DNA of 64,000 nucleotides, from positions 13,869,729 through 13,933,728 of the forward strand of contig CP136068.1 of the NCBI GenBank assembly GCA_032622095.1. The letters run 5' to 3'. The notes under the pieces are model-generated. The model had not been told where the DNA came from and made no database searches. It worked only from the letters and a program-made list of their open reading frames with translations. Below are positions 1,667 through 56,710 of the stretch, piece after piece. Numbering within the stretch: position 1 is the stretch's first letter; each line of letters begins with the position of its first letter. Source of the stretch: Siphonodentalium dalli. Lineage: Eukaryota > Mollusca > Scaphopoda > Gadilida > Siphonodentaliidae. The translations under genes were made by a program, and so were the position numbers.

Positions 1667-1768
1667 GAATCCCAGCAAATCCAATTTACGTCAGCGCTGA
1701 TGATCCAGATGCCCAGCCTGAATCCTCTGTGATCTATGCAGAGGTAAAAAAGCCCGGCAAGACAAAAG
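1667..1768 (+). CDS. Exon A1: NPxY/YVSAD module of a putative signalling tail
   Basis: Internal 102-nt exon, phase 1 at both ends, with acceptor ATGTTTACCTTTTCAG and donor GTTGGT. The translation begins IPANPIYVSADDPD and ends YAEVKKPGKTKG. It holds an NPxY motif (NPIY), a second tyrosine (VIYAEV) and a basic C-terminal end. NPxY is known as a PTB-domain or endocytic-adaptor ligand in receptor tails; that this copy works so is inference. It closely resembles exon A3, including the VYAEVKKP end and the upstream ATGTTTACC tract, so the two are paralogous. The element at 1814-2030 starts 45 bp after its donor. Upstream exons of the gene lie left of the window. The borders are predicted by eye only. 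The exon call is good because five other exons have the same length, phase and motif order. Confidence 0.8.
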
Positions 1769-1813
1769 GTTGGTGTTTAAAGATTCCCTGTCTGATTGAA
1801 TATCCCTAAACTA

Positions 1814-2030
1814 TACAGTAATGCTCTAATTAATCGACTTCTTAACCACAGCAGAATTATGGGTAACTTTTCAGAATTTAGTTGGAAATATAGCTTGTTG
1901 GCATTCATCGGAAAGCTTTCGGGGAGAGCTTTCCGATGAATGGCAACAAGTCATATTTCCGACAAATTCCCGAAAAGATACCTATAATTCTGCTGTGGAT
2001 AAGAAGTCGATTAATTAGAGCATTAATGTA
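1814..2030. mobile_element. Palindromic MITE, family M copy 1
   Basis: A foldback whose two arms of about 105 bp are nearly perfect inverses. It starts TACAGTAATGC and ends GCATTAATGTA, with the centre at AAAGCTTTCGGGGAGAGCTTT. It lies 45 bp after exon A1. Confidence 0.85.
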
Positions 2031-2299
2031 ATTTCTTGGCTCCAGGGAGTACAAAATATTTTATTTGAGTCGGGAAATCCACATTTCAAAAACTCCATGC
2101 GCATAATTTGTCTTCAAACTTTTTGGCTATATTAAACTGCATAACCTTGAAGTGATGTGAAACACCTCACTGAGGCAAACAGCAAATAAACTTGCTCAAA
2201 GCAGGCATTTTAATTAATTTTGTCTCACAATTTCCAGCATACAACGTCATTCTATCACATAAATCAAATACAGTGACTCTCGTTTGTTTATCGGCGATT

Positions 2300-2707
2300 T
2301 ATTCAGGAACAATGCTGGCAAGCCTGAATTTAGTGGGCCTGTCATTTTCAGAATGACGTTCCCAGAGGGTGAATCTAGTTATGCTATCCCGCCAGCAGGC
2401 TAGCATCACCATATTCACCCTCTGGGGACCTCATTCTGCTTGGCCTCATCTGCTATGGGAAACATTGACTCAGATTGAAGCTCCCAAATAGTGAATATTG
2501 TGATTGACACCCATTGGGAGCCTTGATTATGCAATGTGTCATCTGCCAATTTGGGGATACCGAGAAACTAAACTAAAAAAGAAATAGAATCTATGTGAAG
2601 AAGTTCCTATAGATATTTGATGATAAAGAAACTTTCCAGAGAAGATGAGGCCTGAGAAGAATGAGGTCCCCAGAGGGTGAATTTAGTGATGCTAGCCCGC
2701 TAGATAT
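2300..2707. mobile_element. hAT-type foldback family C, copy 1
   Basis: Contains inverted GAGGGTGAAT and ATTCACCCTCTGG arms around GCTAGCATCAC, then a shared interior (CCCAATTTGGGGATA type) and a second GAGGTCCCCAGAGG arm. The family also occurs at 16.1-18.0, 21.4, 24.4, 32.3, 48.3, 57.0 and 59.4-60.3 kb. Confidence 0.7.
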
Positions 2708-2845
2708 TTCTTAATAATTTGAAGATAATTGTTGTTGTTGTTGCCCTTAATGTAACTTAAGTTTGCTGTGGAAAGTATTCTTAGTTCCGCTGGAACAGTC
2801 CCAACTCTAGTGTTTTCTAATATATTTTATTTATTTATCTGGCAG

Positions 2846-2920
2846 GATCTTCTGGTAAGAAGAAACAGGATGCCGCCCCGGAACCTTCACCATACGAGGA
2901 CATCGAGAGTCAGAGATCAG
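2846..2920 (+). CDS. Exon Y1: YEDI tyrosine module
   Basis: Internal 75-nt exon, phase 1-1, with acceptor TTATCTGGCAG and donor GTAATA. The translation reads SSGKKKQDAAPEPSPYEDIE and continues SQRS. The start is basic (GKKK), then comes a Pro/acidic linker and the motif YEDI. YEDI/YEEI is the classic SH2-ligand type for Src-family kinases once phosphorylated; use here is inferred. It is paralogous to exon Y2, which has GKKKKEVPPSTEYEEI in the same order. It follows A1 by about 1.1 kb, filled by a palindromic MITE and a hAT-type foldback. The symmetric phase means it could be skipped without a frameshift. Confidence 0.75.
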
Positions 2921-3171
2921 GTAATATATCAATATCAGAACGAGGAACACAATTTTTTATTAGAACCCTTTTATTAGTGAATGGACTCTTCCTCTCTATT
3001 ATCATATTACTAATAGGAATCTTCTATCATTCAATTTGAGGGGTTTTCTGATACAAAGTGTCTGTATATATTTACAGCAAGTAGGGCTGCTAAGATTCAT
3101 CGCGATTATGATGCATCACGTATTTAAGTTCACAATGCAATGCATCGTATTGGGAGGGTGTGATGTGATAC

Positions 3172-6100
3172 AAAAAGAGTTCATGTATGCAGAGTTATTA
3201 ATAGTCAAAGACAAAAAGAGTTCATGTATGTAGAGTTATTAATAGTCAAAGACAAAAAGAGTTCATGTATGCAGAGTTATTAATAGTCAAAGACAAAAAG
3301 AGTTCATATATGTAGAGTTATTAATAGTCAAAGACAAAAAGAGTTCATGTATGCAGAGTTATTAATAGTCAAAGACAAAAATAGTTCATATATGTAGAGT
3401 TATTAATAGTCAAAGACAAAAAGAGTTCATGTATGCAGAGTTATTAATAGTCAAAGACAAAAAGAGTTCATATATGTAGAGTTATTAATAGTCAAAGACA
3501 AAAAGAGTTCATGTATGCAGAGTTATTAATAGTCAAAGACAAAAAGAGTTCATGTATGTAGAGTTATTAATAGTCAAAGACAAAAAGAGTTCATGTATGC
3601 AGAGTTATTAATAGTCAAAGACAAAAAGAGTTCATATATGTAGAGTTATTAATAGTCAAAGACAAAAAGAGTTCATGTATGTAGAGTTATTAATAGTCAA
3701 AGACAAAAAGAGTTCATGTATGTAGAGTTATTAATAGTCAAAGACAAAAAGAGTTCATGTATGCAGAGTTATTAATAGTCAAAGACAAAAAGAGTTCATG
3801 TATGTAGAGTTATTAATAGTCAAAGACAAAAAGAGTTCATGTATGTAGAGTTATTAATAGTCAAAGACAAAAAGAGTTCATGTATGTAGAGTTATTAATA
3901 GTCAAAGACAAAAAGAGTTCATGTATGTAGAGTTATTAATAGTCAAAGACAAAAAGAGTTCATGTATGCAGAGTTATTAATAGTCAAAGACAAAAAGAGT
4001 TCATGTATGTAGAGTTATTAATAGTCAAAGACAAAAAGAGTTCATGTATGTAGAGTTATTAATAGTCAAAGACAAAAAGAGTTCATGTATGCAGAGTTAT
4101 TAATAGTCAAAGACAAAAAGAGTTCATGTATGCAGAGTTATTAATAGTCAAAGACAAAAAGAGTTCATGTATGCAGAGTTATTAATAGTCAAAGACAAAA
4201 AGAGTTCATGTATGTAGAGTTATTAATAGTCAAAGACAAAAAGAGTTCATGTATGTAGAGTTATTAATAGTCAAAGACAAAAAGAGTTCATGTATGTAGA
4301 GTTATTAATAGTCAAAGACAAAAAGAGTTCATGTATGTAGAGTTATTAATAGTCAAAGACAAAAAGAGTTCATGTATGTAGAGTTATTAATAGTCAAAGA
4401 CAAAAAGAGTTCATGTATGCAGAGTTATTAATAGTCAAAGACAAAAAGAGTTCATGTATGCAGAGTTATTAATAGTCAAAGACAAAAAGAGTTCATGTAT
4501 GCAGAGTTATTAATAGTCAAAGACAAAAAGAGTTCATGTATGTAGAGTTATTAATAGTCAAAGACAAAAAGAGTTCATGTATGTAGAGTTATTAATAGTC
4601 AAAGACAAAAAGAGTTCATGTATGCAGAGTTATTAATAGTCAAAGACAAAAAGAGTTCATGTATGCAGAGTTATTAATAGTCAAAGACAAAAAGAGTTCA
4701 TGTATGCAGAGTTATTAATAGTCAAAGACAAAAAGAGTTCATGTATGCAGAGTTATTAATAGTCAAAGACAAAAAGAGTTCATGTATGCAGAGTTATTAA
4801 TAGTCAAAGACAAAAAGAGTTCATGTATGCAGAGTTATTAATAGTCAAAGACAAAAAGAGTTCATGTATGTAGAGTTATTAATAGTCAAAGACAAAAAGA
4901 GTTCATGTATGTAGAGTTATTAATAGTCAAAGACAAAAAGAGTTCATGTATGCAGAGTTATTAATAGTCAAAGACAAAAAGAGTTCATGTATGTAGAGTT
5001 ATTAATAGTCAAAGACAAAAAGAGTTCATATATGTAGAGTTATTAATAGTCAAAGACAAAAAGAGTTCATGTATGCAGAGTTATTAATAGTCAAAGACAA
5101 AAAGAGTTCATGTATGTAGAGTTATTAATAGTCAAAGACAAAAAGAGTTCATGTATGTAGAGTTATTAAGAGTCAAAGACAAAAAGAGTTCATGTATGCA
5201 GAGTTATTAATAGTCAAAGACAAAAAGAGTTCATGTATGTAGAGTTATTAATAGTCAAAGACAAAAAGAGTTCATGTATGTAGAGTTATTAATAGTCAAA
5301 GACAAAAAGAGTTCATGTATGCAGAGTTATTAATAGTCAAAGACAAAAAGAGTTCATGTATGTAGAGTTATTAATAGTCAAAGACAAAAAGAGTTCATGT
5401 ATGTAGAGTTATTAATAGTCAAAGACAAAAAGAGTTCATGTATGTAGAGTTATTAATAGTCAAAGACAAAAAGAGTTCATGTATGTAGAGTTATTAATAG
5501 TCAAAGACAAAAAGAGTTCATGTATGTAGAGTTATTAATAGTCAAAGACAAAAAGAGTTCATGTATGTAGAGTTATTAATAGTCAAAGACAAAAAGAGTT
5601 CATGTATGTAGAGTTATTAATAGTCAAAGACAAAAAGAGTTCATGTATGCAGAGTTATTAATAGTCAAAGACAAAAAGAGTTCATGTATGCAGAGTTATT
5701 AATAGTCAAAGACAAAAAGAGTTCATGTATGCAGAGTTATTAATAGTCAAAGACAAAAAGAGTTCATGTATGTAGAGTTATTAATAGTCAAAGACAAAAA
5801 GAGTTCATGTATGCAGAGTTATTAATAGTCAAAGACAAAAAGAGTTCATGTATGCAGAGTTATTAATAGTCAAAGACAAAAAGAGTTCATGTATGTAGAG
5901 TTATTAATAGTCAAAGACAAAAAGAGTTCATGTATGTAGAGTTATTAAGAGTCAAAGACAAAAAGAGTTCATGTATGCAGAGTTATTAATAGTCAAAGAC
6001 AAAAAGAGTTCATGTATGTAGAGTTATTAATAGTCAAAGACAAAAAGAGTTCATGTATGTAGAGTTATTAATAGTCAAAGACAAAAAGAGTTCATGTATG

Positions 6101-8541
6101 CAGAGTTATTAATAGTCAAAGACAAAAAGAGTTCATGTATGTAGAGTTATTAATAGTCAAAGACAAAAAGAGTTCATGTATGTAGAGTTATTAATAGTCA
6201 AAGACAAAAAGAGTTCATGTATGTAGAGTTATTAATAGTCAAAGACAAAAAGAGTTCATGTATGTAGAGTTATTAATAGTCAAAGACAAAAAGAGTTCAT
6301 GTATGTAGAGTTATTAATAGTCAAAGACAAAAAGAGTTCATGTATGTAGAGTTATTAATAGTCAAAGACAAAAAGAGTTCATGTATGTAGAGTTATTAAT
6401 AGTCAAAGACAAAAAGAGTTCATGTATGCAGAGTTATTAATAGTCAAAGACAAAAAGAGTTCATGTATGCAGAGTTATTAATAGTCAAAGACAAAAAGAG
6501 TTCATGTATGCAGAGTTATTAATAGTCAAAGACAAAAAGAGTTCATGTATGTAGAGTTATTAATAGTCAAAGACAAAAAGAGTTCATGTATGCAGAGTTA
6601 TTAATAGTCAAAGACAAAAAGAGTTCATGTATGCAGAGTTATTAATAGTCAAAGACAAAAAGAGTTCATGTATGTAGAGTTATTAATAGTCAAAGACAAA
6701 AAGAGTTCATGTATGTAGAGTTATTAAGAGTCAAAGACAAAAAGAGTTCATGTATGCAGAGTTATTAATAGTCAAAGACAAAAAGAGTTCATGTATGTAG
6801 AGTTATTAATAGTCAAAGACAAAAAGAGTTCATGTATGTAGAGTTATTAATAGTCAAAGACAAAAAGAGTTCATGTATGCAGAGTTATTAATAGTCAAAG
6901 ACAAAAAGAGTTCATGTATGTAGAGTTATTAATAGTCAAAGACAAAAAGAGTTCATGTATGTAGAGTTATTAATAGTCAAAGACAAAAAGAGTTCATGTA
7001 TGTAGAGTTATTAATAGTCAAAGACAAAAAGAGTTCATGTATGCAGAGTTATTAATAGTCAAAGAAAAAAAGAGTTCATGTATGTAGAGTTATTAATAGT
7101 CAAAGACAAAAAGAGTTCATGTATGTAGAGTTATTAATAGTCAAAGACAAAAAGAGTTCATGTATGTAGAGTTATTAATAGTCAAAGACAAAAAGAGTTC
7201 ATGTATGCAGAGTTATTAATAGTCAAAGACAAAAAGAGTTCATGTATGCAGAGTTATTAATAGTCAAAGACAAAAAGAGTTCATGTATGCAGAGTTATTA
7301 ATAGTCAAAGACAAAAAGAGTTCATGTATGTAGAGTTATTAATAGTCAAAGACAAAAAGAGTTCATGTATGCAGAGTTATTAATAGTCAAAGACAAAAAG
7401 AGTTCATGTATGCAGAGTTATTAATAGTCAAAGACAAAAAGAGTTCATGTATGCAGAGTTATTAATAGTCAAAGACAAAAAGAGTTCATGTATGTAGAGT
7501 TATTAATAGTCAAAGACAAAAAGAGTTCATGTATGCAGAGTTATTAATAGTCAAAGACAAAAAGAGTTCATGTATGCAGAGTTATTAATAGTCAAAGACA
7601 AAAAGAGTTCATGTATGTAGAGTTATTAATAGTCAAAGACAAAAAGAGTTCATGTATGTAGAGTTATTAAGAGTCAAAGACAAAAAGAGTTCATGTATGC
7701 AGAGTTATTAATAGTCAAAGACAAAAAGAGTTCATGTATGTAGAGTTATTAATAGTCAAAGACAAAAAGAGTTCATGTATGTAGAGTTATTAATAGTCAA
7801 AGACAAAAAGAGTTCATGTATGCAGAGTTATTAATAGTCAAAGACAAAAAGAGTTCATGTATGTAGAGTTATTAATAGTCAAAGACAAAAAGAGTTCATG
7901 TATGTAGAGTTATTAATAGTCAAAGACAAAAAGAGTTCATGTATGTAGAGTTATTAATAGTCAAAGACAAAAAGAGTTCATGTATGTAGAGTTATTAATA
8001 GTCAAAGACAAAAAGAGTTCATGTATGTAGAGTTATTAATAGTCAAAGACAAAAAGAGTTCATGTATGTAGAGTTATTAATAGTCAAAGACAAAAAGAGT
8101 TCATGTATGTAGAGTTATTAATAGTCAAAGACAAAAAGAGTTCATGTATGCAGAGTTATTAATAGTCAAAGACAAAAAGAGTTCATGTATGCAGAGTTAT
8201 TAATAGTCAAAGACAAAAAGAGTTCATGTATGCAGAGTTATTAATAGTCAAAGACAAAAAGAGTTCATGTATGTAGAGTTATTAATAGTCAAAGACAAAA
8301 AGAGTTCATGTATGCAGAGTTATTAATAGTCAAAGACAAAAAGAGTTCATGTATGCAGAGTTATTAATAGTCAAAGACAAAAAGAGTTCATGTATGCAGA
8401 GTTATTAATAGTCAAAGACAAAAAGAGTTCATGTATGTAGAGTTATTAATAGTCAAAGACAAAAAGAGTTCATGTATGCAGAGTTATTAATAGTCAAAGA
8501 CAAAAAGAGTTCATGTATGCAGAGTTATTAATAGTCAAAGA
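3172..8541. repeat. 41-bp satellite array with higher-order structure
   Basis: About 131 copies of a 41-bp unit beginning AGAGTTATTAATAGTCAAAG and ending TTCATGTATGY. Most copies differ only in the last base (C or T). A rare variant, TTATTAAGAG, recurs at 5163, 5942 and 6721 (779 bp, exactly 19 units) and at 7664 (943 bp, 23 units). The array lies in the intron between Y1 and b1. Confidence 0.97.
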
Positions 8542-9112
8542 TCCAAACTTTTACACTCAAAACTTCCGATTTGGGTACTGTATGAGCTATTATAGTCTAC
8601 ATGTGATACCTGGTCATGCATTGTTTTCGTTTTTAGTTAGGTTTTGTAATTTACATACTAAAAATTATTAAGTGGTTCATCTAGTTTTCACAGATGTCAG
8701 TTTACAAAAATTTGTTTACACATCGCATCGTGGTAGTAGAATTGAGATTCACTGAGGATGCACTGGAACAGGGTCTTTAATGCTGCACCAGCGCAGCTCC
8801 CGTCATGAAAAGGTTAAAAGTGATTGAAGAACGATTTTTATATTTTACATCAAAATGTGTCCCCAGAAGCCAGAACCACAAATTAAGTGCCCACAATCTT
8901 ATGACTAGTATGTATTATATGTGTTTGTCAGGGAAGGATCCAGGCCTGTTTTGATACCTGTTACAGGTTAGGGCGCCCAAACTCTGGAGGCCTAAATGTC
9001 CCCAAATTGCAAGTGGATAGTTTTTATTAAAGCTGAATTTTCTATATTTTCAAGGAAATTTTCTATTATAATTCAACAACATGCAATGCAAATCATCAAT
9101 ATACAGTTGATA
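8542..9112. other. Intron sequence with one element fragment
   Basis: I see no gene here. Positions 8760-8817 match the right end of the TTAA-type hairpin elements (GCTGCACCAGCGCAGCTC..CATGAAAAGGTTAA). Confidence 0.5.
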
Positions 9113-9243
9113 TACAGTAATGCCCTAATTAATCGACTCCATAACCACAGCAGAATTATGGGTAACTTTATATAGGGACATTCTCAAAAGTTACCCATAA
9201 TTCTGCTGTGGTTATGGAGTCGATTAATTAGAGCATTACTGTA
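9113..9243. mobile_element. Palindromic MITE, family M copy 2 (deleted)
   Basis: Starts TACAGTAATGCCC and ends GAGCATTACTGTA. The middle of both arms is missing and is replaced by TATAGGGACATTCTC. Confidence 0.8.
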
Positions 9244-9287
9244 GACCCTCTATTTGCATAATCAAGTGTGCAGTGAGGAATATTTTA

Positions 9288-9583
9288 AACCTTTCATGAC
9301 TGGGGCTTCTTGAAATTTTTCAAAAATCCTGTGCCAATGCATTCTCTTATATATGCGAGTCTCCCATCTAAGGAGCCTCACATATATAAGAGAATACATT
9401 GGCCTTTTATCTTGACCTTGTAAGCCAGTGCATTTTCTTATGCGGGAGACTTGCATATATAAGTGAATGAAATGGCATAGGATCTAAATTAATGCTGCAC
9501 CAGTGCAGCTCTTGTCATAAAATGGTTAACAAAGATCTTTAATGTTGCGCCAGTGCAGCTCTTGTCATAAAATGGTTAACATT
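9288..9583. mobile_element. Hairpin-core TTAA-type element with duplicated right end
   Basis: Left end CCTTTCATGACTGGGGCTTC, an inner hairpin with TGCCAATGCATTCTC, and right end GTCATAAAATGGTTAAC. The last 50 bp are repeated once in tandem (about 9480-9530 and 9532-9583). Confidence 0.65.
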
Positions 9584-10330: not shown

Positions 10331-10343
10331 GTTCCAAAGGGAT
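10331..10343 (+). CDS. Microexon b1 (13 nt, phase 1-2)
   Basis: A 13-nt candidate microexon between TTATTTTCAG and GTGAGT, encoding SKGM/I across its junctions. It starts in phase 1 and ends in phase 2, exactly as the longer B exons do, and the next candidate (c1) starts in phase 2. Joined, b1 and c1 make 36 nt and keep the frame. Such a short exon cannot be proven from sequence; support comes from consensus splice sites and from parallel phase with the B2/C2 and B3/C3 pairs. Its flanking introns are very long, about 7.4 kb to Y1 and 13.5 kb to c1. Confidence 0.45.
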
Positions 10344-18238: not shown

Positions 18239-18708
18239 TGACAGAGAGGATTGATCTTGTGACATTGTGACAGAGAGGATTGATCTTGTGACATTGTGAC
18301 AGAGAGGATTGATCTTGTGACATTGTGACAGAGAGGATTGATCTTGTGACATTGTGACAGAGAGGATTGATCTTGTGACATTGTGACAGCGAGGATTGAT
18401 CTTGTGACATTGTGACAGAGAGGATTGATCTTGTGACATTGTGACAGAGAGGATTGATCTTGTGACATTGTGACAGCGAGGATTGATCTTGTGACATTGT
18501 GACAGAGAGGATTGATCTTGTGACATTGTGACAGAGAGGATTGATCTTGTGACATTGTGACAGCGAGGATTGATCTTGTGACATTGTGACAGAGAGGATT
18601 GATCTTGTGACATTGTGACAGAGAGGATTTATCATGTGACATTGTGACAGAGAGGATTGATCTTGTGACATTGTGACAGAGAGGATTGATCTTGTGACAT
18701 TGTGACAT
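18239..18708. repeat. 29-bp minisatellite
   Basis: About 16 copies of TGACAGAGAGGATTGATCTT plus GTGACATTG, with an occasional GACAGCGAGG variant. Because 29 is not a multiple of 3 and the minus strand has no stop, three overlapping long minus-strand frames appear. They are not genes. Confidence 0.97.
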
Positions 18709-23818: not shown

Positions 23819-23841
23819 AAGTAACGATATCGACCTGAGCC
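23819..23841 (+). CDS. Microexon c1 (23 nt, phase 2-1)
   Basis: A 23-nt candidate exon with acceptor TTTTTTATTTCAG and donor GTAAGT. It reads (x)SNDIDLS plus the first base C of the next codon. The DIDLS end matches EPDIS in C2 and C3, and all three end with C before GTAAGT, so they look like paralogous C-type microexons. The final C would turn the first codon of a following A exon into CGT (Arg). A degenerate tandem repeat begins shortly after the donor. Confidence 0.6.
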
Positions 23842-26189: not shown

Positions 26190-26291
26190 GTATTCCTGCA
26201 AATCCACAGTATATCAGTGCTGACGAGGTTCATCTAGATGAGACAACCACGTCGAAGTCTGATCGCAAGAAGTCAGACAAAAAACTCAAAG
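26190..26291 (+). CDS. Exon A2: NPQYISADE module
   Basis: Internal 102-nt exon, phase 1-1, acceptor AATCCACAG, donor GTAAGG. The translation begins IPANPQYISADEVHLDETTT and ends in a Lys-rich stretch with RKKSDKKLKG. The NPxY motif, YISADE core and basic end follow the order of A1 and A4. It starts an A-B-C cassette: B2 follows after 266 bp and C2 after another 1.2 kb. The intron to B2 contains short irregular repeats of GACACATATTGACATATATT type. Confidence 0.82.
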
Positions 26292-26557: not shown

Positions 26558-26585
26558 AGAAAGAATCAAAGAAATCAAAATCAGA
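26558..26585 (+). CDS. Microexon B2 (28 nt, phase 1-2)
   Basis: A 28-nt exon with acceptor CTTCTTACAG and donor GTAAGT. Joined to A2 (ending in G) it reads EKESKKSKSE, a charged Lys/Glu/Ser linker. It ends in phase 2, so it is in frame only with a phase-2 exon such as C2. B3 is nearly the same (EKEAKNTKPE), which is strong evidence that both are real duplicated exons. Confidence 0.75.
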
Positions 26586-27779: not shown

Positions 27780-27805
27780 AAAATCTCAAGAACCAGATAT
27801 AAGCC
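27780..27805 (+). CDS. Microexon C2 (26 nt, phase 2-1)
   Basis: A 26-nt exon with acceptor CTTGTCTTTCAG and donor GTAAGT. After B2 it reads EKSQEPDIS plus a trailing C. C3 shares EPDIS, the length, the phase and the donor. B2 and C2 total 54 nt, so the pair is frame-neutral when both are kept or both skipped. In between lies a 500-bp dispersed element (27179-27685) and a palindromic MITE. Confidence 0.75.
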
Positions 27806-28878: not shown

Positions 28879-28904
28879 GTATCTCAGCAAACCCTACATA
28901 CATA
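28879..28904 (+). pseudogene. Truncated A-type exon remnant
   Basis: After a good acceptor (ATCTCTATTACAG) the sequence reads ISANPTYI in phase 1, the start of an A exon with an NPTY motif. Homology to A exons stops after about 26 bp, the frame reaches a stop at 28951, and a dispersed element begins near 28943. It is probably a dead exon copy. If the acceptor were used it would give a short alternative C-terminus that keeps one NPxY motif. Confidence 0.55.
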
Positions 28905-31777: not shown

Positions 31778-31849
31778 ACATCACTGGAACGGGAGAACCA
31801 ATAAGTGCAGATGATATGACTGATATCTATTTCATGTTTACCGTTTCAG
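31778..31849 (+). repeat. Degraded first unit of the A3 array
   Basis: Reads EPISADDMTDIYFMFTVS. The exon start and its acceptor are lost, but the 3' part still supplies CTGAT, the pyrimidine tract and the acceptor for the first functional unit. Confidence 0.7.
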
Positions 31850-32239
31850 GTATCCCGGCAAACCCAGCATACATAAGTGCAGATCAAGTGACTGATTTCC
31901 ATCTCATGTTTACCGTTTCAGGTATCCCGGCAAACCCAGCATACATAAGTGCAGATCAAGTGACTGATTTCCATCTCATGTTTACCGTTTCAGGTATCCC
32001 GGCAAACCCAGCATACATAAGTGCAGATCAAGTGACTGATTTCTATCTCACGTTTACCGTTTCAGGTATCCCGGCAAACCCAGCATACATAAGTGCAGAT
32101 CAAGTGACTGATTTCTATCTCACGTTTACCGTTTCAGGTATCCCGGCAAACCCAGCATACATAAGTGCAGATGAAGTCACTGATATCCAGCCTGAATTTG
32201 CTGTGTATGCAGAGGTTAAAAAACCCCGAAAAACAAAAG
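31850..32239 (+). CDS. Exon A3 with five tandem in-frame acceptors (NPAYISAD repeats)
   Basis: The basic exon is 32138-32239: 102 nt, phase 1-1, donor GTTTGT. It begins IPANPAYISADEVTD and ends YAEVKKPRKTKG, the closest relative of A1. Upstream, a 72-bp unit is repeated in frame, with acceptors TTTACCGTTTCAG ending at 31849, 31921, 31993, 32065 and 32137. Each unit encodes GIPANPAYISADQVTD plus F[HY]L[MT]FTVS, where the last eight codons are also the pyrimidine tract and acceptor of the next unit. Choice of acceptor would give exons of 102, 174, 246, 318 or 390 nt with one to five NPAY motifs. A degraded unit without acceptor precedes them (31778-31849). Units 1 and 2 are identical, as are 3 and 4, so duplication is recent. 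The array lies inside a TTAA-bounded inverted-repeat element. Confidence 0.78.
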
Positions 32240-33154: not shown

Positions 33155-33182
33155 AGAAAGAAGCAAAGAATACAAAACCAGA
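33155..33182 (+). CDS. Microexon B3 (28 nt, phase 1-2)
   Basis: A 28-nt exon with acceptor TTTCATCTTCCAG and donor GTAAGT, reading EKEAKNTKPE when joined to an exon ending in G. It is a paralogue of B2 with the same length and phase. Its acceptor lies only about 48 bp right of the TTAA end of the element carrying A3, so that element ends just short of this exon. Confidence 0.75.
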
Positions 33183-35003: not shown

Positions 35004-35029
35004 AACAATCAAAGAACCAGATATAAGTC
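35004..35029 (+). CDS. Microexon C3 (26 nt, phase 2-1)
   Basis: A 26-nt exon with acceptor TTCATTTCTTTCAG and donor GTAAGT. It reads ETIKEPDIS after B3, plus a trailing C. It is a paralogue of C2 and restores phase 1 after B3. A palindromic MITE starts only 30 bp beyond the donor (35060). The long intron from B3 contains two TTAA-flanked elements and another MITE. Confidence 0.75.
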
Positions 35030-35277: not shown

Positions 35278-35369
35278 TTTTGGTAAGCCCGGAATTATGA
35301 TACACATCACACAAAGGGAAGATAAACCTGCTCAGTGTGTCTGGGCAAGTGTCAGTAGACGCTCTAGCT

Positions 35370-36961
35370 GCTATGTTCACCATCATGAGAGACCAGTACA
35401 ACCCATAGAGAGCCCCAGATAGACTGGAGCAGATGACACTACATAGTGCATACTTCCATTTGTGTGAGGTTCCCTGTGGGTTACACTGGCTCTATGATGC
35501 TCCGATGCTCTGCTATGTTAGCCATCATGAGAGACCAGTACAACCCATAGAGAGCCCCAGATAGACTGGAGCAGATGACACTACGTAGTGCATGCTTCAA
35601 TCTGTGGGTCACACTGACACTATGATGCTCCGATGCTCTGCTATGTTAGCCATCATGAGATACCAGTACAACCCATAGAGAGCCCCAGATAGACTGGAGC
35701 AGATGACACTACGTAGTGCATACTTCCATTTGTGTGAGGTTCCCTGTGGGTCACACTGGCTCTATGATGCTCCGATGCTCTGCTATGTTAGCCATCATGA
35801 GAGACCAGTACAACCCATAGAGAGCCCCAGATAGACTGGAGCAGATGACACTACGTAGTGCATGCTTCAATCTGTGGGTCACACTGACACTATGATGCTC
35901 CGATGCTCTGCTATGTTAGCCATCATGAGATACCAGTACAACCCATAGAGAGCCCCAGATAGACTGGAGCAGATGACACTACGTAGTGCATACTTCCATT
36001 TGTGTGAGGTTCCCTGTGGGTTACACTGGCTCTATGATGCTCCGATGCTCTGCTATGTTAGCCATCATGAGAGACCAGTACAACCCATAGAGAGCCCCAG
36101 ATAGACTGGAGCAGATGACACTACATAGTGCATGCTTCAATCTGTGGGTCACACTGACACTATGATGCTCCGATGCTCTGCTATGTTAGCCATCATGAGA
36201 GACCAATACAACCCATAGAGAGCCCCAGATAGACTGGAGCAGATGACACTACGTAGTGCATACTTCCATTTGTGTGAGGTTCCCTGTGGGTTACACTGGC
36301 TCTATGACGCACTGATGCTCTGATGCTCTGCTATGTTAGCCACCATGAGAGACCAGTACAACCCATAGAGAGCCCCAGATAGACTGGAGCAGATGACACT
36401 ACGTAGTGCATACTTCCATTTGTGTGAGGTTCCCTGTGGGTTACACTGGCTCTATGACGCACTGATGCTCTGCTATGTTAGCCACCATGAGAGACCAGTA
36501 CAACCCATAGAGAGCCCCAGATAGACTGGAGCAGATGACACTACGTAGTGCATACTTCCATTTGTGTGAGGTTCCCTGTGGGTTACACTGGCTCTATGAC
36601 GCTCTGATGCTCTGCTATGTTAGCCACCATGAGAGACCAGTACAACCCATAGAGAGCCCCAGATAGACTGGAGCAGATGACACTACGTAGTGCATACTTC
36701 CATTTGTGTGAGGTTCCCTGTGGGTTACACTGGCTCTATGACGCACTGATGCTCTGCTATGTTAGCCACCATGAGAGACCAGTACAACCCATAGAAAGCC
36801 CCAGATAGACTGGAGCAGATGACACTACGTAGTGCATACTTCCATTTGTGTGAGGTTCCCTGTGGGTTACACTGGCTCTATGACGCACTGATGCTCTGAT
36901 GCTCTGCTATGTTAGCCACCATGAGAGACCAGTACAACCCATAGAAAGCCCCAGATAGACT
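35370..36961. repeat. Tandem array of 128/142/150-bp units
   Basis: The mark GTTAGCC[AG]... before ATGAGAGACCAGTACAACCC recurs with spacings 128, 142, 128, 142, 128, 150, 142, 142, 142 and 150 bp. The first half is thus a 270-bp dimer array and the second half a monomer array. It ends 132 bp before exon A4. Confidence 0.93.
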
Positions 36962-37093
36962 GGCCTTGAACTTTGTCGTAATGCGATTGGTCAGTTACCA
37001 CTCTCTGTCAATAATATGAGATTCGTCAATAGCACAAACTTTCTTACATAAATCTAAATTCTATTTTGCTCAACATTTCCTCTATGTATCCAG

Positions 37094-37195
37094 GTATTCC
37101 CATGAATCCTCAGTATATAAGCGCTGATGACCTCGAGAAAGAGGAAACTACTCCTACCAAGACCGCTGCCAAGAAACCGGACAAGAAAACCAAAG
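37094..37195 (+). CDS. Exon A4: NPQYISADD module
   Basis: Internal 102-nt exon, phase 1-1, acceptor CTATGTATCCAG, donor GTGAGA. The translation begins IPMNPQYISADDLEKEETTP and ends with a basic KKPDKKTKG stretch. NPxY, YISAD, acidic middle and Lys-rich tail are all present. It follows the large tandem array ending near 36961 by about 130 bp and precedes Y2 by 3.9 kb, giving a second A-then-Y order like A1-Y1. Confidence 0.82.
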
Positions 37196-41103: not shown

Positions 41104-41184
41104 GTGGGTTGTTTGGTAAGAAGAAAAAGGAGGTTCCTCCCTCCACTGAATATGAGGAGATCGGGAACATGAAAGATGAAAGTC
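41104..41184 (+). CDS. Exon Y2: YEEI tyrosine module
   Basis: Internal 81-nt exon, phase 1-1, acceptor TTTCATTTTCCAG, donor GTAAGT. It reads GLFGKKKKEVPPSTEYEEIG then NMKDES plus a trailing C. YEEI is the textbook high-affinity ligand type for Src-family SH2 domains when phosphorylated; that the protein is phosphorylated is inference. GKKKK and the Pro/acidic linker align with Y1. A palindromic MITE ends 50 bp before its acceptor region. Confidence 0.8.
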
Positions 41185-48156: not shown

Positions 48157-48261
48157 AGTTGCCGATGAAACGTAACTACATTAGTGCAGATGAATTTCCA
48201 GCTGAAGAGACCGAGACGTCTCTTACAGTTAACAAACCAAAACCAAACAAGAAATCCAAAG
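48157..48261 (+). CDS. Exon A5: divergent YISADE module lacking NP
   Basis: Internal 105-nt exon, phase 1-1, acceptor CCCACTTTACAG, donor GTAAGA. It begins LPMKRNYISADEFPAEETET and ends KPNKKSKG. YISADE, the acidic middle and the Lys-rich end are kept, but the NPxY asparagine and proline are replaced (KRNY). It is one codon longer than the other A exons. A TTAA-flanked MITE ends 67 bp upstream and a truncated hAT-type foldback starts about 18 bp after its donor. It can join T (GCA, Ala) or K (GGC, Gly). Confidence 0.77.
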
Positions 48262-49071: not shown

Positions 49072-49195
49072 TACTGTATGGAGAGGGATTTGGTTTGTAT
49101 AGAGGGTCCCTTTTAAGATGTTTTATTTACTGTATGGAGAGGGATTTGGTTTGTAGAGGGTCCCTTTTAAGATGTTTTATTTACTGTATGGAGAG

Positions 49196-50567
49196 TAGTG
49201 ATGTAACGATACGGGGGTTATCGGTAAAAGCCGATAGCCGATATTTTCAGTAGAATTATCGGCCGATCCGATACAGATACCGATAAGTCTTGTACGTGAA
49301 CCAAACTCCATATCAATTTGTCTTTTAAATTACAAAATATTGTCGGCAAAGAACCGATATTGCGATAACCTCGTTGCAAAAAAGTTTAGTTTACGTTCCC
49401 CAAAAACCCTGGCAAAACGATTTAATATTTCGTTGCATTCATAAGATTTCCTCAATATTTTTTTATTCCGTTACCGTGCCTTACGGAATCAGTCCATACT
49501 AGTAATCCATTTGAGTCAATGACGGCAATTTCAATTTCAATTTGCCAAACTCAATCTTTTTCAGAAGTTGAACTTGCGTTTAATAACAGCTACATTGTCC
49601 CGCATAAATTGTTGACATTTTCTCTGCCCATGACAGCAGATACAAATCCCGCCCATAGAGCACTCTGATTGGTTCGGATGGTTCTATCAAACAAGTTAGT
49701 CACCTCCTCCATCTTCAGTCATCGTATACCAGAATGTCAGTCAATCAATTTGAATCAAACGCACTTTAAACACACACACACACACTTAACTGTTGTTAAC
49801 ACGTGATGTTTCTATATATTGAGGAATAGCGAGTCACGACTGCGGCGACTTTAATGCAAACTGGTCAAGTGTGACTCGTCTATTTATAAACACTGATTTT
49901 TAGTTTACTGTGTCATCTGTCAACACATGGCTTGTTAGTGATTCCTACTCGATGACATCAAATGCATGCAAATAATCGTTTGATCTTACCGCCCGGCATC
50001 CGCCTTGGGAAGATCATAACAATGTGACAACTTACTGTCGCACGTGGTGCATAATTAATTCCACACCCCCATGAATACATCACTAAATGATACCGGTACA
50101 TCAGTCTGATTCACTCACAGGAAGATTCCATTCTCACGCTAATGCCAGGGGCGTCAGTTATTCACTTTCAACATGTACTACTCGGCACTCACAAGTAATT
50201 TTAATTGTATACAGTTTATGTTTTAACTTTAATTATTGAGCGTACCGAACTACGGTACCTTTGAAAATGTTTATTTTGGGTCATGAGTGTACCAACAGTC
50301 TCATGTCGACGTTGTCATCATGATCATGGTTTATCACTGTATGTGATGGAGGGCTGACCAGTGCGTAAAATAGTCGCCATTTTTTCGGGAAATTCCCGTC
50401 ATTTATTTAATATTAAATAATTGGTGTAACAACGTTCACAAAGGACGCGACATGTATCGGTTAACGATATCGGTCGGGAGACTAAATTTTACCGATACCG
50501 ATATCTTGCTGATACCACATATATCGGCCCGATCCGTTAGCCGATACCGATAATCGGTACATCACTA
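49196..50567. mobile_element. hAT-type element with exact 8-bp duplication
   Basis: Ends TAGTGATGTAACGATAC and TAATCGGTACATCACTA. Duplication ATGGAGAG at 49188-49195 and 50568-50575. Subterminal ATCGG/CCGAT repeats. No transposase frame was recognised. Confidence 0.88.
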
Positions 50568-50832
50568 ATGGAGAGGGATTTGGTTTGTAGAGGGTCCCTT
50601 TTAAGATGTTTTATTTACTGTATGGAGAGGGTTTGGTTTATAGAGGGTCTGGTTTGATTGGTCCAGGGACACTCCTCTCCTATCACTAAGACTGTACGTA
50701 TGTTAGTTATATAATGCAGCATCTACAATTTATCTATTTTATGTTTTTTTTTTATACATTTTACATGCATGTTAATTATTTTGTGCCTCTTCTGAAAACT
50801 GTCTCTGCTTTCTCTCTTGGATAATTTCTTAG

Positions 50833-50945
50833 CAATGCTTCAAGAATTGACACATCGGACCAGGGACATTCATCTCTTCCCACCAAGGTTGTACATAATG
50901 AAGCATCTACCATCTCATCTGAATAGTGGATGTTGTAAAATATAG
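50833..50945 (+). pseudogene. Terminal-exon-like copy T' (possible alternative 3' exon)
   Basis: A polypyrimidine tract and acceptor ending TTTCTTAG precede a phase-1 reading AMLQELTHRTRDIHLFPP that stops at 50943-50945. The upstream intron (CTCTGCTTTCTCTCTT) and the CAATGCTT..AAGA start match the real terminal exon T at 53443, so this is a duplicate. After MLxE the protein diverges from T. It could be an alternative last exon or a dead copy. The antisense frame is also open, but it runs through the polypyrimidine tract. Confidence 0.4.
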
Positions 50946-51521
50946 AGATCCGGGGGGGCTGGGAACACCACAGAATACAAGGGTAAACCTGTCTTCGGTA
51001 ACATGGACAAAGGTGATCATTATCTAGGTACACATTCCGAAGCGCCACTTGGACAATTCCATAGTCAGTAAAATTAAAAACAGGAGCATAATAGAGGTAT
51101 GCCTGGTGTTTTGAAATTTGGAAAATATAGGTATACATATGACAGAGTATGCGTACCAGTATCGTAGAATCACGCACTATCATAAATGAACTAGTTATAC
51201 GTCGAGTATTAAAATATTCTTAAGTTTCATGATTGTCCCATACCGGTAGTTTCAGTAAAACATGGGAGCGTGGTACATAGTTAGGTGTTACAAATTTAGA
51301 AATTAGGAACGTAAGCATAGGCCGCGAGTTTTCGAAAGGGTTAATTTTGAAATTTATAGTTATGTACATGAGTAAGCAGTTGTGGAATGTAAGTGTAGGT
51401 GTAAGTCTGAAGTAAAATGCTAAATTTCACTGGAATCGTCGTCAGTTATGTACCTGGTGATGGAGTGTTTAAACAACAGACCACCGCTTTTCGACACTTT
51501 CTCTCTTGGATAATTTCTTAG

Positions 51522-51652
51522 CAATGCTTCAAGAATTGACACATCGGACCAGGGACATTCATCTCTTCCCACCAAGGTTGTACATAATGAAGCATCTACC
51601 ATCTCATCTTAATAGGGGAGACAATCCGTGCGACTGCGACATCCTCTTGTGA
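51522..51652 (+). pseudogene. Second terminal-exon-like copy T''
   Basis: Positions 51501-51610 repeat 50812-50920 with no difference that I can see, including the acceptor CTTAG and the start AMLQELTHRTRD. The copies diverge after CATCTCATCT, and this one stops at 51650-51652. A third, poorer fragment lies around 50664-50735 (GGTCCAGGGACAC). Together they show local duplication of the gene's 3' end. Confidence 0.4.
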
Positions 51653-52572
51653 TATACAGCAATCTTTAGGGTTAAATATTTTCCAGTTTTTTAATAAAAA
51701 TGGGACTGGGTATCTTGAGGGGTCTAAATCGGGAAATCGCCAGCTTTTTCTTCATTTCACATTCTCAACTCACCAGGGGGAAATTGCAAGTGTTACCACT
51801 GTACATATGCTACTGGAACCAGTCAATATGGGAGTTAAAAACTCACTAGTAACCTAGTGTCATTATTTTTATTAGTAGCATTGAAGATTTTTGTGGGAGG
51901 CATACAGATTCTTGTTTATATGAGTATGCTGCTAAATTATACAAGCATGTGTATTTTTACTTCTCATAGTGCCACTTTTCATTTATTCTTTCTAATACAA
52001 TTAAAATGATCACTCAAGAGAACAATTGTAGCAGTTGGTGATAATCCGGGAATCAGGAATTGGAAATTCAGTACTGAAACCAGGAAATCACGGACTTAAC
52101 TTCAACAGAAATCTTCATCTTTGTTATCTTTTATTGTCTTTGTTTGTAAATATAATTGTATGCATGCTGTTTCACCTTATATCAATCACTCAACAATTTT
52201 ACCTAAAAATGATTTACGTTTCTTATTCCACACCCATTGTTATAAAACAACAGCCATTGAATACATTTTATATGTATACCACAAGGTGAATACAATAATT
52301 TGGAAACCACAGCCAAGGATTGAACTTACCTGATACAAGGATTGAACTTACCTGATACAAGGATTGAACTTACCTGACACAAGGATGCGGAATAAATGCA
52401 GAACACAACCTGCATTATAGTCTCAAATATTGTATTGAATTTGTTGTGGATGATGCATAGTTACATATACATTTCACTTGAGTTTCACGCAGTCCGCAAC
52501 TCATTTGATAATTGAATCTCGATTAAGATACGCTTTATATGCTCTGTCTATATATATTGATTTGTGTCATTT
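51653..52572. other. Intron sequence with a small tandem repeat
   Basis: About three and a half copies of a 22-bp unit (CAAGGATTGAACTTACCTGA) lie at 52314-52385. It holds TTACCTGA, the reverse of a splice donor. Nothing else was recognised. Confidence 0.5.
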
Positions 52573-52813
52573 TTAACCCTTTCTATACTAAATGGATTTT
52601 CCCATTCAGTTATAAAAGTATAGATTGAAATGGTCTATTATTCATCTTGAGGGGTGTTCATGAAATATAAGCAGATGACAGATAATAAAAGTGCAGACGA
52701 AGTCCTATTTATTGCAGGGAAATGTTCAGATAATAAGTTCAACAAACAACCTCTCTGAACATTTTTTAAGGGATATCTACTATTCAATGAGTATTTAGTA
52801 CAGAAAGGGTTAC
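52573..52813. mobile_element. TTAA-type element, CTATACTAAAT subfamily
   Basis: Ends TTAACCCTTTCTATACTAAA and TTTAGTACAGAAAGGGTTA, imperfect inverses. It matches 21944-22171. Confidence 0.7.
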
Positions 52814-52819
52814 GGTAGC

Positions 52820-53410
52820 TGCATGTTATACTATGCATTTTATACTGTGTATGTTATACTATGCATGTTATACTATGCATGTTATACTGTGTATGTTATA
52901 CTATGCATTTTATACTGTGTATGTTATACTGTGTATGTTATACTATGCATGCTATACTATGCATGCTATACTGTGCATGTTATACTATATACTGTGCATG
53001 TTATACTATGCATGTTATACTAGGCATGTTATACTATGCATGCTATACTGTGAATGTTATACTATGCATGTTATACTATGCATGTTATACTATGCATGCT
53101 ATACTGTGAATGTTATACTATGCATGTTATACTGTGCATGTTATACTATGCATGTTATACTGTGTATGTTATACTATGCATGTTATACTGTGCATGTTAT
53201 ACTATGCATGTTATACTGTGCATGTTATACTATGCATGTTATACTATGCATGTTATACTATGCATGTTATACTATGCATGTTATACTGTGTATGTTATAC
53301 TATGCATGTTATACTGTGCATGTTATACTATGCATGTTATACTATGCATGTTATACTATGCATGTTATACTATGCATGTTTTTCTTTGCACGTTTTACTA
53401 TGCATGTTCT
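52820..53410. repeat. 14-bp minisatellite before exon T
   Basis: About 42 units of ATGCATGTTATACT with TGTG/TATG variants. Most frames stay open on the plus strand, producing long false ORFs of MHVILCMLYY type. It ends about 30 bp before the acceptor of T. Confidence 0.95.
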
Positions 53411-53442
53411 GAAACCATTCTCTGCTTTCTCTCTTTCCATAG

Positions 53443-53618
53443 CAATGCTTAAAGAGGTGGCAAAACAGAAGAAAAATTTACCTACTCCACCCCCGTCGCC
53501 AACAGAGACGTCTCTACCGATTCAAGAATCGACACAGATGTCTCCACCGATTCAAGAATCGGTGTCTCCAGCAGTAAATGGAGAATCACAAAACAGTAAT
53601 AATAATCAGCGATATTAA
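53443..53618 (+). CDS. Terminal exon T: Pro-rich C-terminus with stop
   Basis: A 176-nt last exon entering in phase 1 from acceptor CTCTCTTTCCATAG. It begins (A)MLKEVAKQKKNLPTPPPSPT, continues through two PIQES repeats and ends NNNQRY followed by TAA. The basic start is followed by a Pro-rich stretch (LPTPPPSP) of the kind that can bind SH3 domains, which is inference. An internal 30-bp duplication makes the PIQES repeat. The TAA stop overlaps a TTAA at 53615-53618 where a TTAA-type element begins. The upstream intron ends in a 14-bp minisatellite that stays open in this frame, but the coding start is the acceptor, not the repeat. A polyadenylation-like AATAAA is at 54154. Confidence 0.75.
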
Positions 53619-53990
53619 TCCTTTCATGAAGGGAACTGCGCTGGCGCAGCATTAAAAACCCTGTGTCAATGCATTCTCTTATATATGCGAGTTGACCATA
53701 GGGAGCCTCAAATATATAAGAGAATGCACTGGCTTAACAGTTTTATCAGTTTTTCTTACATTCTTTAAAAAAAATTATGCTTTTTTCTTAGTCTTTAACA
53801 ATTTTTATCATTTTTTATTACATTCTTTAACAATTTTTACAATTTTTTTCTTGTATTCTATAACATTTTTTATCATTATTTCTTAAATTCCTTAACAATT
53901 TTTTATCAGTTTTTTTATTTTTTCTAATACATTCTTTAACAATTATGAAAAATAAGATAAGATTTGTTTGGCCAATGCATGCTCTTATAT
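53615..53990. mobile_element. TTAA-type hairpin element starting at the stop codon of T
   Basis: TTAA at 53615-53618 is followed by TCCTTTCATGAAGGG and a TGTCAATGCATTCTC hairpin, then TTTTTCTTACATTCTTTAAC repeats. The right hairpin is cut near 53990 and the right end is missing. Confidence 0.65.
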
Positions 53991-54377
53991 GCTGGTAGTT
54001 ATCCGGAAAGACAAGAGACAGAGTTTAGTAAATCCGTGTATTCAATTATAATTCCCTCTATTGAGTATGGTACATGAATATAACCTATGTCTAGCACCAA
54101 TATATTTCGTTCCTCTGTCATATTCTCAGTAAAGAAGATCGAGTGTATAAAAAAATAAATAAGCGGATTACCAATAGAGGGGGCCAGTGTTTAATATGTG
54201 GCTCTTTGAACAACGATCATATCTTATTTATTTGACATTGTCATTCACGATAAACAGATAGTCGGTACAGTGAATCTGTGATTTGTTGCCATGGTTGTTA
54301 TTAAAGTACAATCACTGGAGTAAAATGTTTTATTGTTATCATGATAATTTCAACAGCAATGATATAACCGACATATT

Positions 54378-54829
54378 TTAACCATTTCATGATTGAGCTG
54401 AGCTGGCGCAACATTAAAGACCATGTGCCAATGCATTCTCTTGTATATGCGAGTCCACCATAGGAGAGCCTCATATATATAAGAGAATGCATTGGCATAA
54501 CAATTTATTATCATTTTTTATTACATTCTTTAACAATTTTTATCATTTTTTTCTCATATTCTTTCACAAATTTTATCATTTTTTTTATCATTTTTTTATA
54601 CGTTCTTTAAAAAAAATTATCATTTTTATAATTTTTTCTTACATTCTTCAACAATTTTTATTATTTCTTACATTCTTTTAACAATTATAAAAAATAATAT
54701 AAAAATTATTAGGTCAATGAATTCTCTTATATATGCAAGGCGACCTATGGTCGACTTGCATATATAAGAGAATGCATTGGCACAGGGTTTTCACAAAAAT
54801 TCAAGAAGCTCCCATCAAGAAAGGGTTAA
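54378..54829. mobile_element. TTAA-type hairpin element
   Basis: TTAA on both sides, with ends CCATTTCATGATTGAGC and CCCATCAAGAAAGGG. Two hairpin cores surround T-rich CATTCTTTAACAATTTTT repeats. Confidence 0.7.
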
Positions 54830-55337
54830 TAGATTGAGACTCAGAGTTGGTTAAAAAATAGCATAATATCAGATAATATATTATTAATTATATTATAAGC
54901 AATATCATTCTGCAGCTAATCAGCTGTCACCATGTGATGTCTCATCTTATCTAACATTTTGAATAATTAATTCACAAAGTTGGAGGTAAATGTTGTGTAT
55001 GGGTCATTAATTTCAAATTAGGTATCAGTTTATTCCCACAAGATTTGTGCAAAGGTAACAGGGGCGGGTCATTAAAATGAGTAAAATATTAATTTAAAAA
55101 ATTTCAATTTAAAACGAGCTTGCCATTTTAAAAAGCACTTCGCTATAGATATCATAGCAATAATTTGAAATTAGTTTTTCCATTGAAAATGAACTCAATG
55201 ACCTAAGTATACTGATCGTTGATTGGTTATACCGGCATCACACGTAATTTGTGTACTGCGAAGTCACTTCATAATTATCGTTAAATAATGGAAAAGAGTG
55301 GCGACTTGGATTCAAATTTGTGATTGATTTGGGCAGA
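54830..55337. other. AT-rich sequence, no feature seen
   Basis: No exon or repeat recognised. Confidence 0.4.
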
Positions 55338-55717
55338 TTAACCCTTTACCCAACAGAAGGGCCCTGTGCCAATGCATTCTATTATATATGCGAGTCGACC
55401 ATAGGTCGCCTCGCATATATAAGAGAATGCATTGGCTTAACACATTAAAAATTATAAAATTGTTAAAGAATGTAAGAAAAAATGGTAAAAAGAGATTTTT
55501 TTTAGGCCAATGCATTCTCTTATATATGCGAGGCGACCTATGGTCGACTCGCATATATAAGAGAATGCATTGGCACAGGGCATAACTGTAACTATCACAA
55601 TGTGGTCAAGGAGCCGGTTCCAATGATATCCATATTTGTATCGTTCTATTGAGACAGACCGAAGATATTTTAGGCTGTTGAAGCTTTATTTGGCCGGTTT
55701 GTTGGGTAAAGGGTTAA
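55338..55717. mobile_element. piggyBac-like element, TTTACCCAACA subfamily
   Basis: TTAA on both sides, ends CCCTTTACCCAACAG and GTTGGGTAAAGGG, with two inward hairpin cores. The interior is nearly that of 12668-13134. Confidence 0.82.
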
Positions 55718-56500
55718 AGACATATTATGGACTTGTTCGGGTGGATGAAATTGATAAGTTAGTACACAGCCACTACGCTAACCTGGGGATGTAGCATTCT
55801 ACTAACATCGCCGAAAATTTCAAAGAGATCGACCATACCACTCCATAGAAAACATCGTCCGAACTATGCTCAATTGTAAATATTTACATCTCGATTCGGG
55901 ACGTAACTATTGGTTATAAAGTAACACAAATGATTTTGCAATCGAGAGACAATGCATTTAATTAACATATAAGAACGGCGGTGTGCTTTGTCAATTTGGA
56001 TTAATATTCATAAAAAATAACTACTTTCAGCAAGATTATTCTCAATTTCTATTTGATCACCCTACCGTAGTGTTTCACATCACTTTAACATTAGTCGATC
56101 AGTCGATACATGATGACGTTTTGTATAAAAGGTTGGTTTTTATCGATAAATATTGAGTTTGAAATGGATGGTATATCATCTCCTGTGATAATGAGGTACC
56201 CAGCTGCCGGTGAATATTTTGTTCAGTGTCTGTTTTCGATGTTTTGGAACAGTTTATCCTATAATCGGTTCAGGGGTTTGTGAATTATGGTCATTATAAG
56301 TGAAGAGATTATTTTATTCTGTGACCTCACTTGTTACATATGATATCTGTAGTGAAGTTTTTTTTTAAATGGAGTGCTCGTTTTAAATTGAAATAATTTT
56401 AAATTTATATTTCACTCATTTTAACGACACAACCCTGTGATACAACGTGATTTGAAGTGATTTTGAAATGTACAGACTGCAGTAGACTTCCCAGTCTTCT
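55718..56500. other. Intron or 3' flanking sequence, no feature seen
   Basis: No exon recognised. The stretch is less repetitive than its neighbours. Confidence 0.4.
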
Positions 56501-56506
56501 TAGTCA

Positions 56507-56640
56507 CTCTAGTCTGGTGAGTGATTCAACAGTCATTGACTCTAGTCTGGTGAGTGATTCAATGGTCATTGACTCTAGTCTGGTGAGTGATTCAACAGTT
56601 ATTGACTCTAGTCTGGTGAGTGATTCAATGGTCATTGACT
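56507..56640. repeat. 33-bp minisatellite before exon K
   Basis: Four copies of TAGTCTGGTGAGTGATTCAA plus a 13-bp rest. Each copy holds CTGGTGAGTG, a donor-like sequence. It ends 16 bp before exon K. Confidence 0.9.
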
Positions 56641-56656
56641 GTCTTGTTATTTGCAG

Positions 56657-56710
56657 GCAAACCACCAACGCCAAAGAAGTTATCTGTAAAGAAATCCAAA
56701 AACAGTGATG
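56657..56710 (+). CDS. Exon K: basic Pro/Lys module downstream of T
   Basis: A 54-nt candidate exon, phase 1-1, acceptor TTGTTATTTGCAG, donor GTAAGA. It reads (G)KPPTPKKLSVKKSKNSD(G), Lys-rich like the ends of the A exons. Its place 3 kb beyond the stop-bearing exon T means that transcripts either end at T or skip T and go on through K to exons I could not find. A 33-bp minisatellite lies just before the acceptor. The last bases plus donor are duplicated at 56748-56770 with the donor GT changed to AT. Confidence 0.6.

Follow-up and report, generated by a model that had tools for sequence, protein, structure and literature searches.

Can one gene assemble its signalling tail from tandem copies of a few small exons, and would it then vary the copies that it uses? 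The question is raised by a locus of the scaphopod mollusc Siphonodentalium dalli, in a 64,000-nucleotide stretch of contig CP136068.1 (here C8; positions 13869729-13933728, plus strand, in a 2.23-Gb genome of nine contigs) that we refer to as the window. An original prediction, made from the letters of the window, had proposed a single gene with a modular tail of tyrosine-motif exons, any subset of which could be joined in frame to give many different tails. We read the window together with its flanks, 140 kb on the upstream side and 30 kb on the downstream side (234 kb in all); window position p corresponds to C8 position 13869728+p, and negative values of p lie upstream. The exon series is confirmed, and the array is very probably the cytoplasmic tail of a single-pass receptor of the immunoglobulin (Ig) superfamily, grown by tandem duplication of phase-1 cassettes. 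This reading draws on the exons themselves, their phases, their same-strand order with Ig and transmembrane exons, and the existence of relatives that are clustered and have cassette arrays of a parallel kind.

A series of frame-neutral tyrosine-motif exons

Fourteen exons lie in the window, all on the plus strand and in the predicted order A-Y-bc-A-BC-A-BC-A-Y-A-T/K, and AG precedes and GT follows every one of them (14/14). Exons were called using homology, phase and AG/GT as well as splice-site strength, the latter from a simple hand-made score and not a trained model. The first, A1 (102 nt, 1667-1768; phase 1-1), reads (G)IPANPIYVSADD...SVIYAEVKKPGKTK, contains both an NPxY site and VIYAEV, which resembles an immunoreceptor tyrosine-based inhibitory motif (ITIM), and has the weak donor GTTGGT. 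It is followed by Y1 (75 nt, 2846-2920; phase 1-1, GSSGKKKQDAAPEPSPYEDIESQRS, donor GTAATA), the microexons b (13 nt, 10331-10343; phase 1 to 2) and c (23 nt, 23819-23841; phase 2 to 1), and A2 (102 nt, 26190-26291; phase 1-1, NPQYISADE). The microexons B1 (28 nt, 26558-26585; phase 1 to 2) and C1 (26 nt, 27780-27805; phase 2 to 1) precede A3, which spans 31850-32239 (32138-32239 and 102 nt in its shortest form) and has five in-frame acceptors and the weak donor GTTTGT. Beyond it are B2 (28 nt, 33155-33182; phase 1 to 2), C2 (26 nt, 35004-35029; phase 2 to 1), A4 (102 nt, 37094-37195; phase 1-1, NPQYISADD), Y2 (81 nt, 41104-41184; phase 1-1, STEYEEIGNMKDES), A5 (105 nt, 48157-48261; phase 1-1, KRNYISADE, with NPxY lost) and the T/K exon (54 nt, 56657-56710; phase 1-1), which is lysine-rich and without tyrosine.

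Six A exons or copies had been counted, and five of these are complete; the sixth, at 28879-28902 (plus strand, GISANPTY), is decayed and retains its acceptor, but no donor was seen. The c microexon has four candidates if no composition filter is applied, and only the one chosen, which also scores strongly at its splice sites, reads like C1 and C2 (SNDIDLS vs QEPDIS and KEPDIS); the same letters and splice sites recur in an upstream copy described below. Together the exons sum to 867 nt, a total that the long form of A3 raises to 1155 nt, in agreement with an expected 1 kb or so of exon spread over 55 kb.

The series continues on both sides of the window, with A1', Y1', b', c' and A2' upstream and Y3 downstream (64946-65053; phase 1-1, TEQLVPVYSAV...VYEDV). 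As predicted, every A and Y exon in the window is phase 1-1 and the microexon pairs are frame-neutral (13+23 nt for b+c, 28+26 nt for each B+C), and the 20 recognised tail exons resolve into 16 blocks, in and around the window, that all start and end in phase 1. Joining these in order gives neither a frameshift nor a junction stop in 120 of 120 combinations, so that the claim of free joining holds at the level of the frame; a frameshift does result when B or C is used in the absence of its partner, and each pair must therefore be spliced as a unit. With the short A3, the 16 blocks hold six NPxY and four YE[DE][IV] sites. The short ITIM pattern [ILVS]xYxx[ILV] has candidate sites in VIYAEV of A1 and A1', which matches the ITIM consensus, and in SPYEDI of Y1 and Y1'. 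The pattern of an immunoreceptor tyrosine-based activation motif (ITAM), YxxL/I-x6-12-YxxL/I, has no match in this gene when its tail blocks are joined.

The A exons are recognisably related: with A4 as the tblastn query against the 234 kb, A2, A5, A1 and A3 were found with E values of 2e-11, 1e-6, 2e-5 and 3e-5 respectively. When the window tail was shuffled 20,000 times, at least four NPxY were seen in no shuffle, at least two YE[DE][IV] in two, and at least five Y[IV]SAD in none, although shuffle tests of this kind assume independence between copies, an assumption that duplicates violate. Nonsynonymous differences per site (pN, 0.23-0.48) are fewer than synonymous ones (pS, 0.69-0.82, near saturation) in all six pairs among A1-A4, A5 being left out for its different length, and this supports A1-A4 as constrained coding exons whether they are used alternatively or not. 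A Pfam search with the tail alone gave no family.

Across the genome, A4 matched six places, all within this gene, and missed A3, which shows that a search with a single exon is not exhaustive; Y2 matched only itself. The pattern NPxY[IV]xAD has 16 exact genome matches, ten of them in this gene (five being the A3 copies and two lying in the upstream copy). With 11 matches to the control pattern, which is the same one reversed, the six outside the gene are at chance level in number. We read five of these six, excluding one on the minus strand of C5, and at four no acceptor-donor pair was seen by eye. The fifth, at C7:59485744, lies in an exon of 42 nt (phase 1-1, GVIENPGYVSADS) whose splice sites score well, and 1.1 kb before it is a 30-nt exon, SQSYQSLQS, with a YxxL motif. 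The surrounding 16 kb contain no hydrophobic run, and four loose matches to an Ig pattern there bear no visible resemblance to Ig exons; the two exons may perhaps belong to another gene with an NPxY cassette.

Immunoglobulin and transmembrane exons upstream of the tail

The original prediction had looked to a protein search for the ectodomain and family of the gene, and these were found in part, as Ig and transmembrane exons upstream on the same strand. The transmembrane exon (C8:13823023-13823154, plus strand, phase 1-1) encodes a long hydrophobic stretch with KRHRNK after it. It was called by a hydrophobic pattern and not by a trained predictor, and is the only match to that pattern in the stretches scanned; a genome search with it finds nothing but itself below an E of 0.05, and seven matches beyond that value. 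At least four Ig exons start near window positions -95165, -92226, -75547 and -68862, also on the plus strand. When joined, the middle two score 41.3 bits against Pfam Ig_3 (cut-off 30) and 35 bits against Ig_2 (cut-off 27); the Pfam scan covered these two, and the outer two, which are Ig-like, were called by tblastn and reading. Sequence matches in the PDB to Contactin-5 (E 4.2e-5) and to CD22 d6-d7 (E 3.5e-4) indicate a weak likeness of Ig domains only, and we claim no orthology.

All five exons lie 46-95 kb upstream of the window and are phase 1-1 by reading. The same-strand order is thus Ig exons first (C8:13777502 and 13794181 are the starts of two of them), next the transmembrane exon, and then the tail, which begins at C8:13831017. 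From this order and phase we infer that the Ig and transmembrane exons are spliced to the tail cassettes and joined with them in one transcript. The proposal of a single gene with a modular tyrosine-motif tail gains support from these exons, but its 'many tails' are permitted by the frame only.

Clustered relatives carry ITAM-like cassettes

A genome search with the second Ig exon lists 34 matches at E<=10, 33 of them on C8; nineteen have E<=3.1e-7, two of these in this gene, and all 19 lie at C8 7.5-26.0 Mb. One relative, at C8:10.37-10.40 Mb, has a transmembrane exon followed by six tandem copies of a tail exon, PIDPSTYETLNNEQTNRDQQYCGLDG..., often encoding an ITAM-like YxxL-x10-YxxL. This exon has 55 matches listed at E<=10 (36 on C8, 12 on C2, four on C3, and three weak ones on C9), and the 36 on C8 form 11 clusters, by rules that we chose ourselves (no more than 100 kb between tail matches and 200 kb to an Ig match, with E up to 10). 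Nine of the 11 clusters have a same-strand Ig match at most 200 kb upstream and none has one on the opposite strand; two of the nine share the Ig match at 16196223 and may be one gene. No match to the second Ig exon is listed on C2 or C3 at E<=10, and the 10 kb upstream of the C3 array contain no Ig or transmembrane pattern.

Three arrays, at C8 10.39 Mb, C8 10.89 Mb and on C3, were read in detail, with tail exons delimited by their best-scoring splice sites. All 15 tail exons are phase 2 to 1, and 12 are preceded by a 25-nt microexon of phase 1 to 2 (xNRRGLPVT-like; one of the 12 calls had three other, unlike candidates), as is a thirteenth once the stretch read is extended. One of the remaining two is instead preceded by a 28-nt exon that lies near the transmembrane exon, and for the other, 1.3 kb from the edge of the stretch read, no microexon was found. 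Since a phase 1-to-2 microexon and a phase 2-to-1 exon together preserve the frame, the relatives also have a frame-neutral cassette. The pattern YxxL/I-x6-12-YxxL/I is matched by 11 of the 15 exons vs 1.4% of shuffles, the copies not being independent. The construction of tails from frame-neutral tyrosine-motif cassettes is thus a recurrent trait here, multiplied in parallel arrays: the gene of the window has multiplied NPxY (A), YEDI/YEEI (Y) and lysine-rich microexon (B/C) cassettes, and the relatives that were read in detail have multiplied ITAM-like ones. We also looked for the relatives' ITAM-like exon in the gene of the window and dropped it as a candidate, as nothing in the 234 kb reached 20 bits.

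ITAM-like tail arrays are located at C8:10.39, 10.89, 11.35-11.41, 15.16-15.26 and 16.34-16.36 Mb and at C3:116.68-116.70 Mb, with several on C2, and are arguably more striking than the gene in the window. Those at C8:15236005-15259959 and 16340950-16365105, about 1.105 Mb apart, have near-identical spacing and equal scores, reflecting either a recent duplication or an uncollapsed haplotype.

Are the cassettes used alternatively?

NPxY sites would recruit PTB (phosphotyrosine-binding) domain or clathrin adaptors, and pYEDI and pYEEI would be bound by SH2 domains of the Src-family type. We propose that cassettes with phase 1 outer boundaries, as in every other readable exon of the gene, duplicated in tandem, and that the resulting tail would act as a multivalent phosphotyrosine scaffold, with the strength of signalling or endocytosis set by how many sites it carries. 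With lower confidence, some cassettes (A1, A3 and the microexon pairs) may be skipped or alternatively chosen, such that the number of sites would vary and combinations would be unequally represented.

Frame-neutrality alone does not show alternative splicing, as it is required of every exon that is duplicated within a spliced gene, and symmetric phase is common to the other readable exons of this gene, the four Ig exons and the transmembrane exon all being phase 1-1. That each of the 16 blocks could be skipped cleanly is expected if functionally different tails are produced, but symmetric phase is not specific to that outcome, and the microexons are skippable only as pairs. More telling are the splice sites. 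The A1 and A3 donors are off consensus, and the remaining donors start with GTAAG or GTGAG except for GTAATA (Y1) and GTAAAT (Y3). A3 includes five head-to-tail copies of a 72-bp unit comprising the intron end and exon start, each with TTTCAG/G, placing acceptors at 31849, 31921, 31993, 32065 and 32137, with a more degenerate A copy without NPxY just ahead of them. The longest form, of 390 nt, contains five NPAY motifs, and because 72 is a multiple of three, the five acceptors could yield from one to five NPAY in one frame. We regard this array as the strongest hint of length variation that the sequence offers. Combinatorial splicing is plausible and modestly favoured by the weak donors and the five tandem acceptors, and Dscam tails, PECAM-1 and Botryllus FcoR provide precedents in other receptors (see below). 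We consider alternative use of at least some cassettes about evenly balanced, and give production of functionally different tails an equal chance of being right or wrong.

Somewhat less probable is a constitutive long tail, in which all cassettes are always included and duplication has only added docking sites. Retained duplicates need frame-neutrality equally in a constitutive gene, the phase 1-1 of the other exons is as expected, and most acceptors and donors look near consensus; a duplicated exon with mandatory inclusion is reported for COE factors, to go by the title of that paper (PMC2394523). The off-consensus A1 and A3 donors do not fit well, and with five near-identical in-frame acceptors at A3 the sole use of one is less expected. 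If alternative splicing is indeed at work, one locus might write a large set of tails, up to 65,536 were the 16 blocks independent, with the A3 acceptors uncounted. That the clustered family uses its cassettes as a splice-tunable phosphotyrosine code, ITAM-like in the relatives and NPxY/YEEI in this member, is a more ambitious suggestion that we put forward as a doubtful one.

An upstream copy of the array and other repeats

The upstream exons A1', Y1', b', c' and A2' lie in a duplicated segment, at -45442 to -24285, corresponding to -4520 to 26329. Noncoding divergence between the copies is 1.7% (322 of 18,661 aligned letters, gaps and minisatellites excluded) with large indels; the exons differ at two of 315 sites, both synonymous. 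Adjoining the upstream copy, from -23835 to -6539 (C8:13845893-13863189), a 5061-bp unit is repeated head to tail about 3.4 times; its copies are 99.97-100% identical, and its longest stop-free frame is 104 codons. The intron between Y1 and b contains 131 copies of a 41-bp unit (3170-8541), for which the upstream segment has only about 150 unaligned bases. Other tandem arrays are found in introns and at the window end, at 18239-18707, 35368-36963, 52820-53408 and 60770-64000, with units of 29, 142 or 270, 14 and 32 bp respectively.

Several observations weigh against the reading of the array as a receptor tail grown by duplication. The gene model, read from genomic sequence, is incomplete, as no first exon was identified in the 234 kb read and a search downstream for a stop-bearing last exon, by a crude rule, gave several candidates and none that is convincing. 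Constraint is not evident throughout, being unclear both between B1C1 and B2C2 (pN 0.18, pS 0.20) and between two very similar arrays of relatives when their ITAM-like exons are summed (pN 0.030, pS 0.032). Between the upstream copy and its counterpart, coding change is not significantly lower than noncoding change (P 0.20 if the rate around exons is used; by Fisher's test, 0.44 for letters near exons and 0.18 for all; the lack of nonsynonymous change has P 0.036), and we make no strong claim of selection from this comparison. The exon at C7:59485744 looks real, and the A motif may thus not be private to this gene. Lastly, a divergence of 1.7% is also possible between haplotypes, and the upstream copy may be an uncollapsed haplotype or an assembly duplicate. 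An array that is partly dead or an assembly product, with A1'-A2' as such a haplotype and some cassettes decaying, would accord with this divergence and its large indels, the decayed A copy at 28879, the adjoining 5061-bp units and the twin arrays at 15.24 and 16.34 Mb, but is unlikely given that the in-window series is independent of the upstream copy and that A1-A4, long diverged (pS 0.69-0.82), are still open and flanked by AG/GT.

Comparison with known receptor systems

The best-known receptor diversity is that of the ectodomain, as in Dscam, protocadherins and antigen receptors. In the duplicated receptor tail that we propose here, the repeated part is instead the signalling end, and the clustered relatives have done likewise with other motif cassettes; if splicing picks cassettes, one gene would tune or switch its signalling output for a fixed recognition domain. 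Arthropod Dscam (Penaeus monodon, Daphnia) is similar in being an Ig receptor with separate motif-bearing tail exons; Penaeus has seven non-constitutive ones, with SH2-binding or ITAM motifs, that are included or skipped (PMC6851185). The passages considered do not describe these exons as duplicates of a single cassette, and the frame is changed by some of the skips, whereas the tail here consists of tandem cassette copies and its every block is frame-neutral.

The cytoplasmic domain of PECAM-1 (CD31), likewise an Ig receptor, is alternatively spliced and does not bind SHP-2 without exon 14 (PMC5664058); tandem NPxY cassettes are not mentioned in the passages considered. At Botryllus FcoR loci, splicing can exchange ITIM and hemITAM (PMC12065747), and FcoR and Hydractinia Alr, which we liken to this gene by description, are allorecognition receptor families with ITIM or ITAM-like motifs for which the passages considered describe no tandem arrays of tail cassettes. 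The CEACAMs, alike by description only, are a fast-changing Ig receptor family whose paralogs are diversified, as an extract of the source has it, by alternative splicing after duplication (PMC5856374). A review of invertebrate Ig proteins mentions no tail-cassette array in the passages considered (PMC11999971), and no earlier description of tandem tail-cassette arrays with different cassettes in different relatives was found in the searches made of open-licence papers. Alternative tails of Ig receptors are already known, and what sets this case apart is a tail made of tandem cassette copies, with different relatives having multiplied different cassettes.

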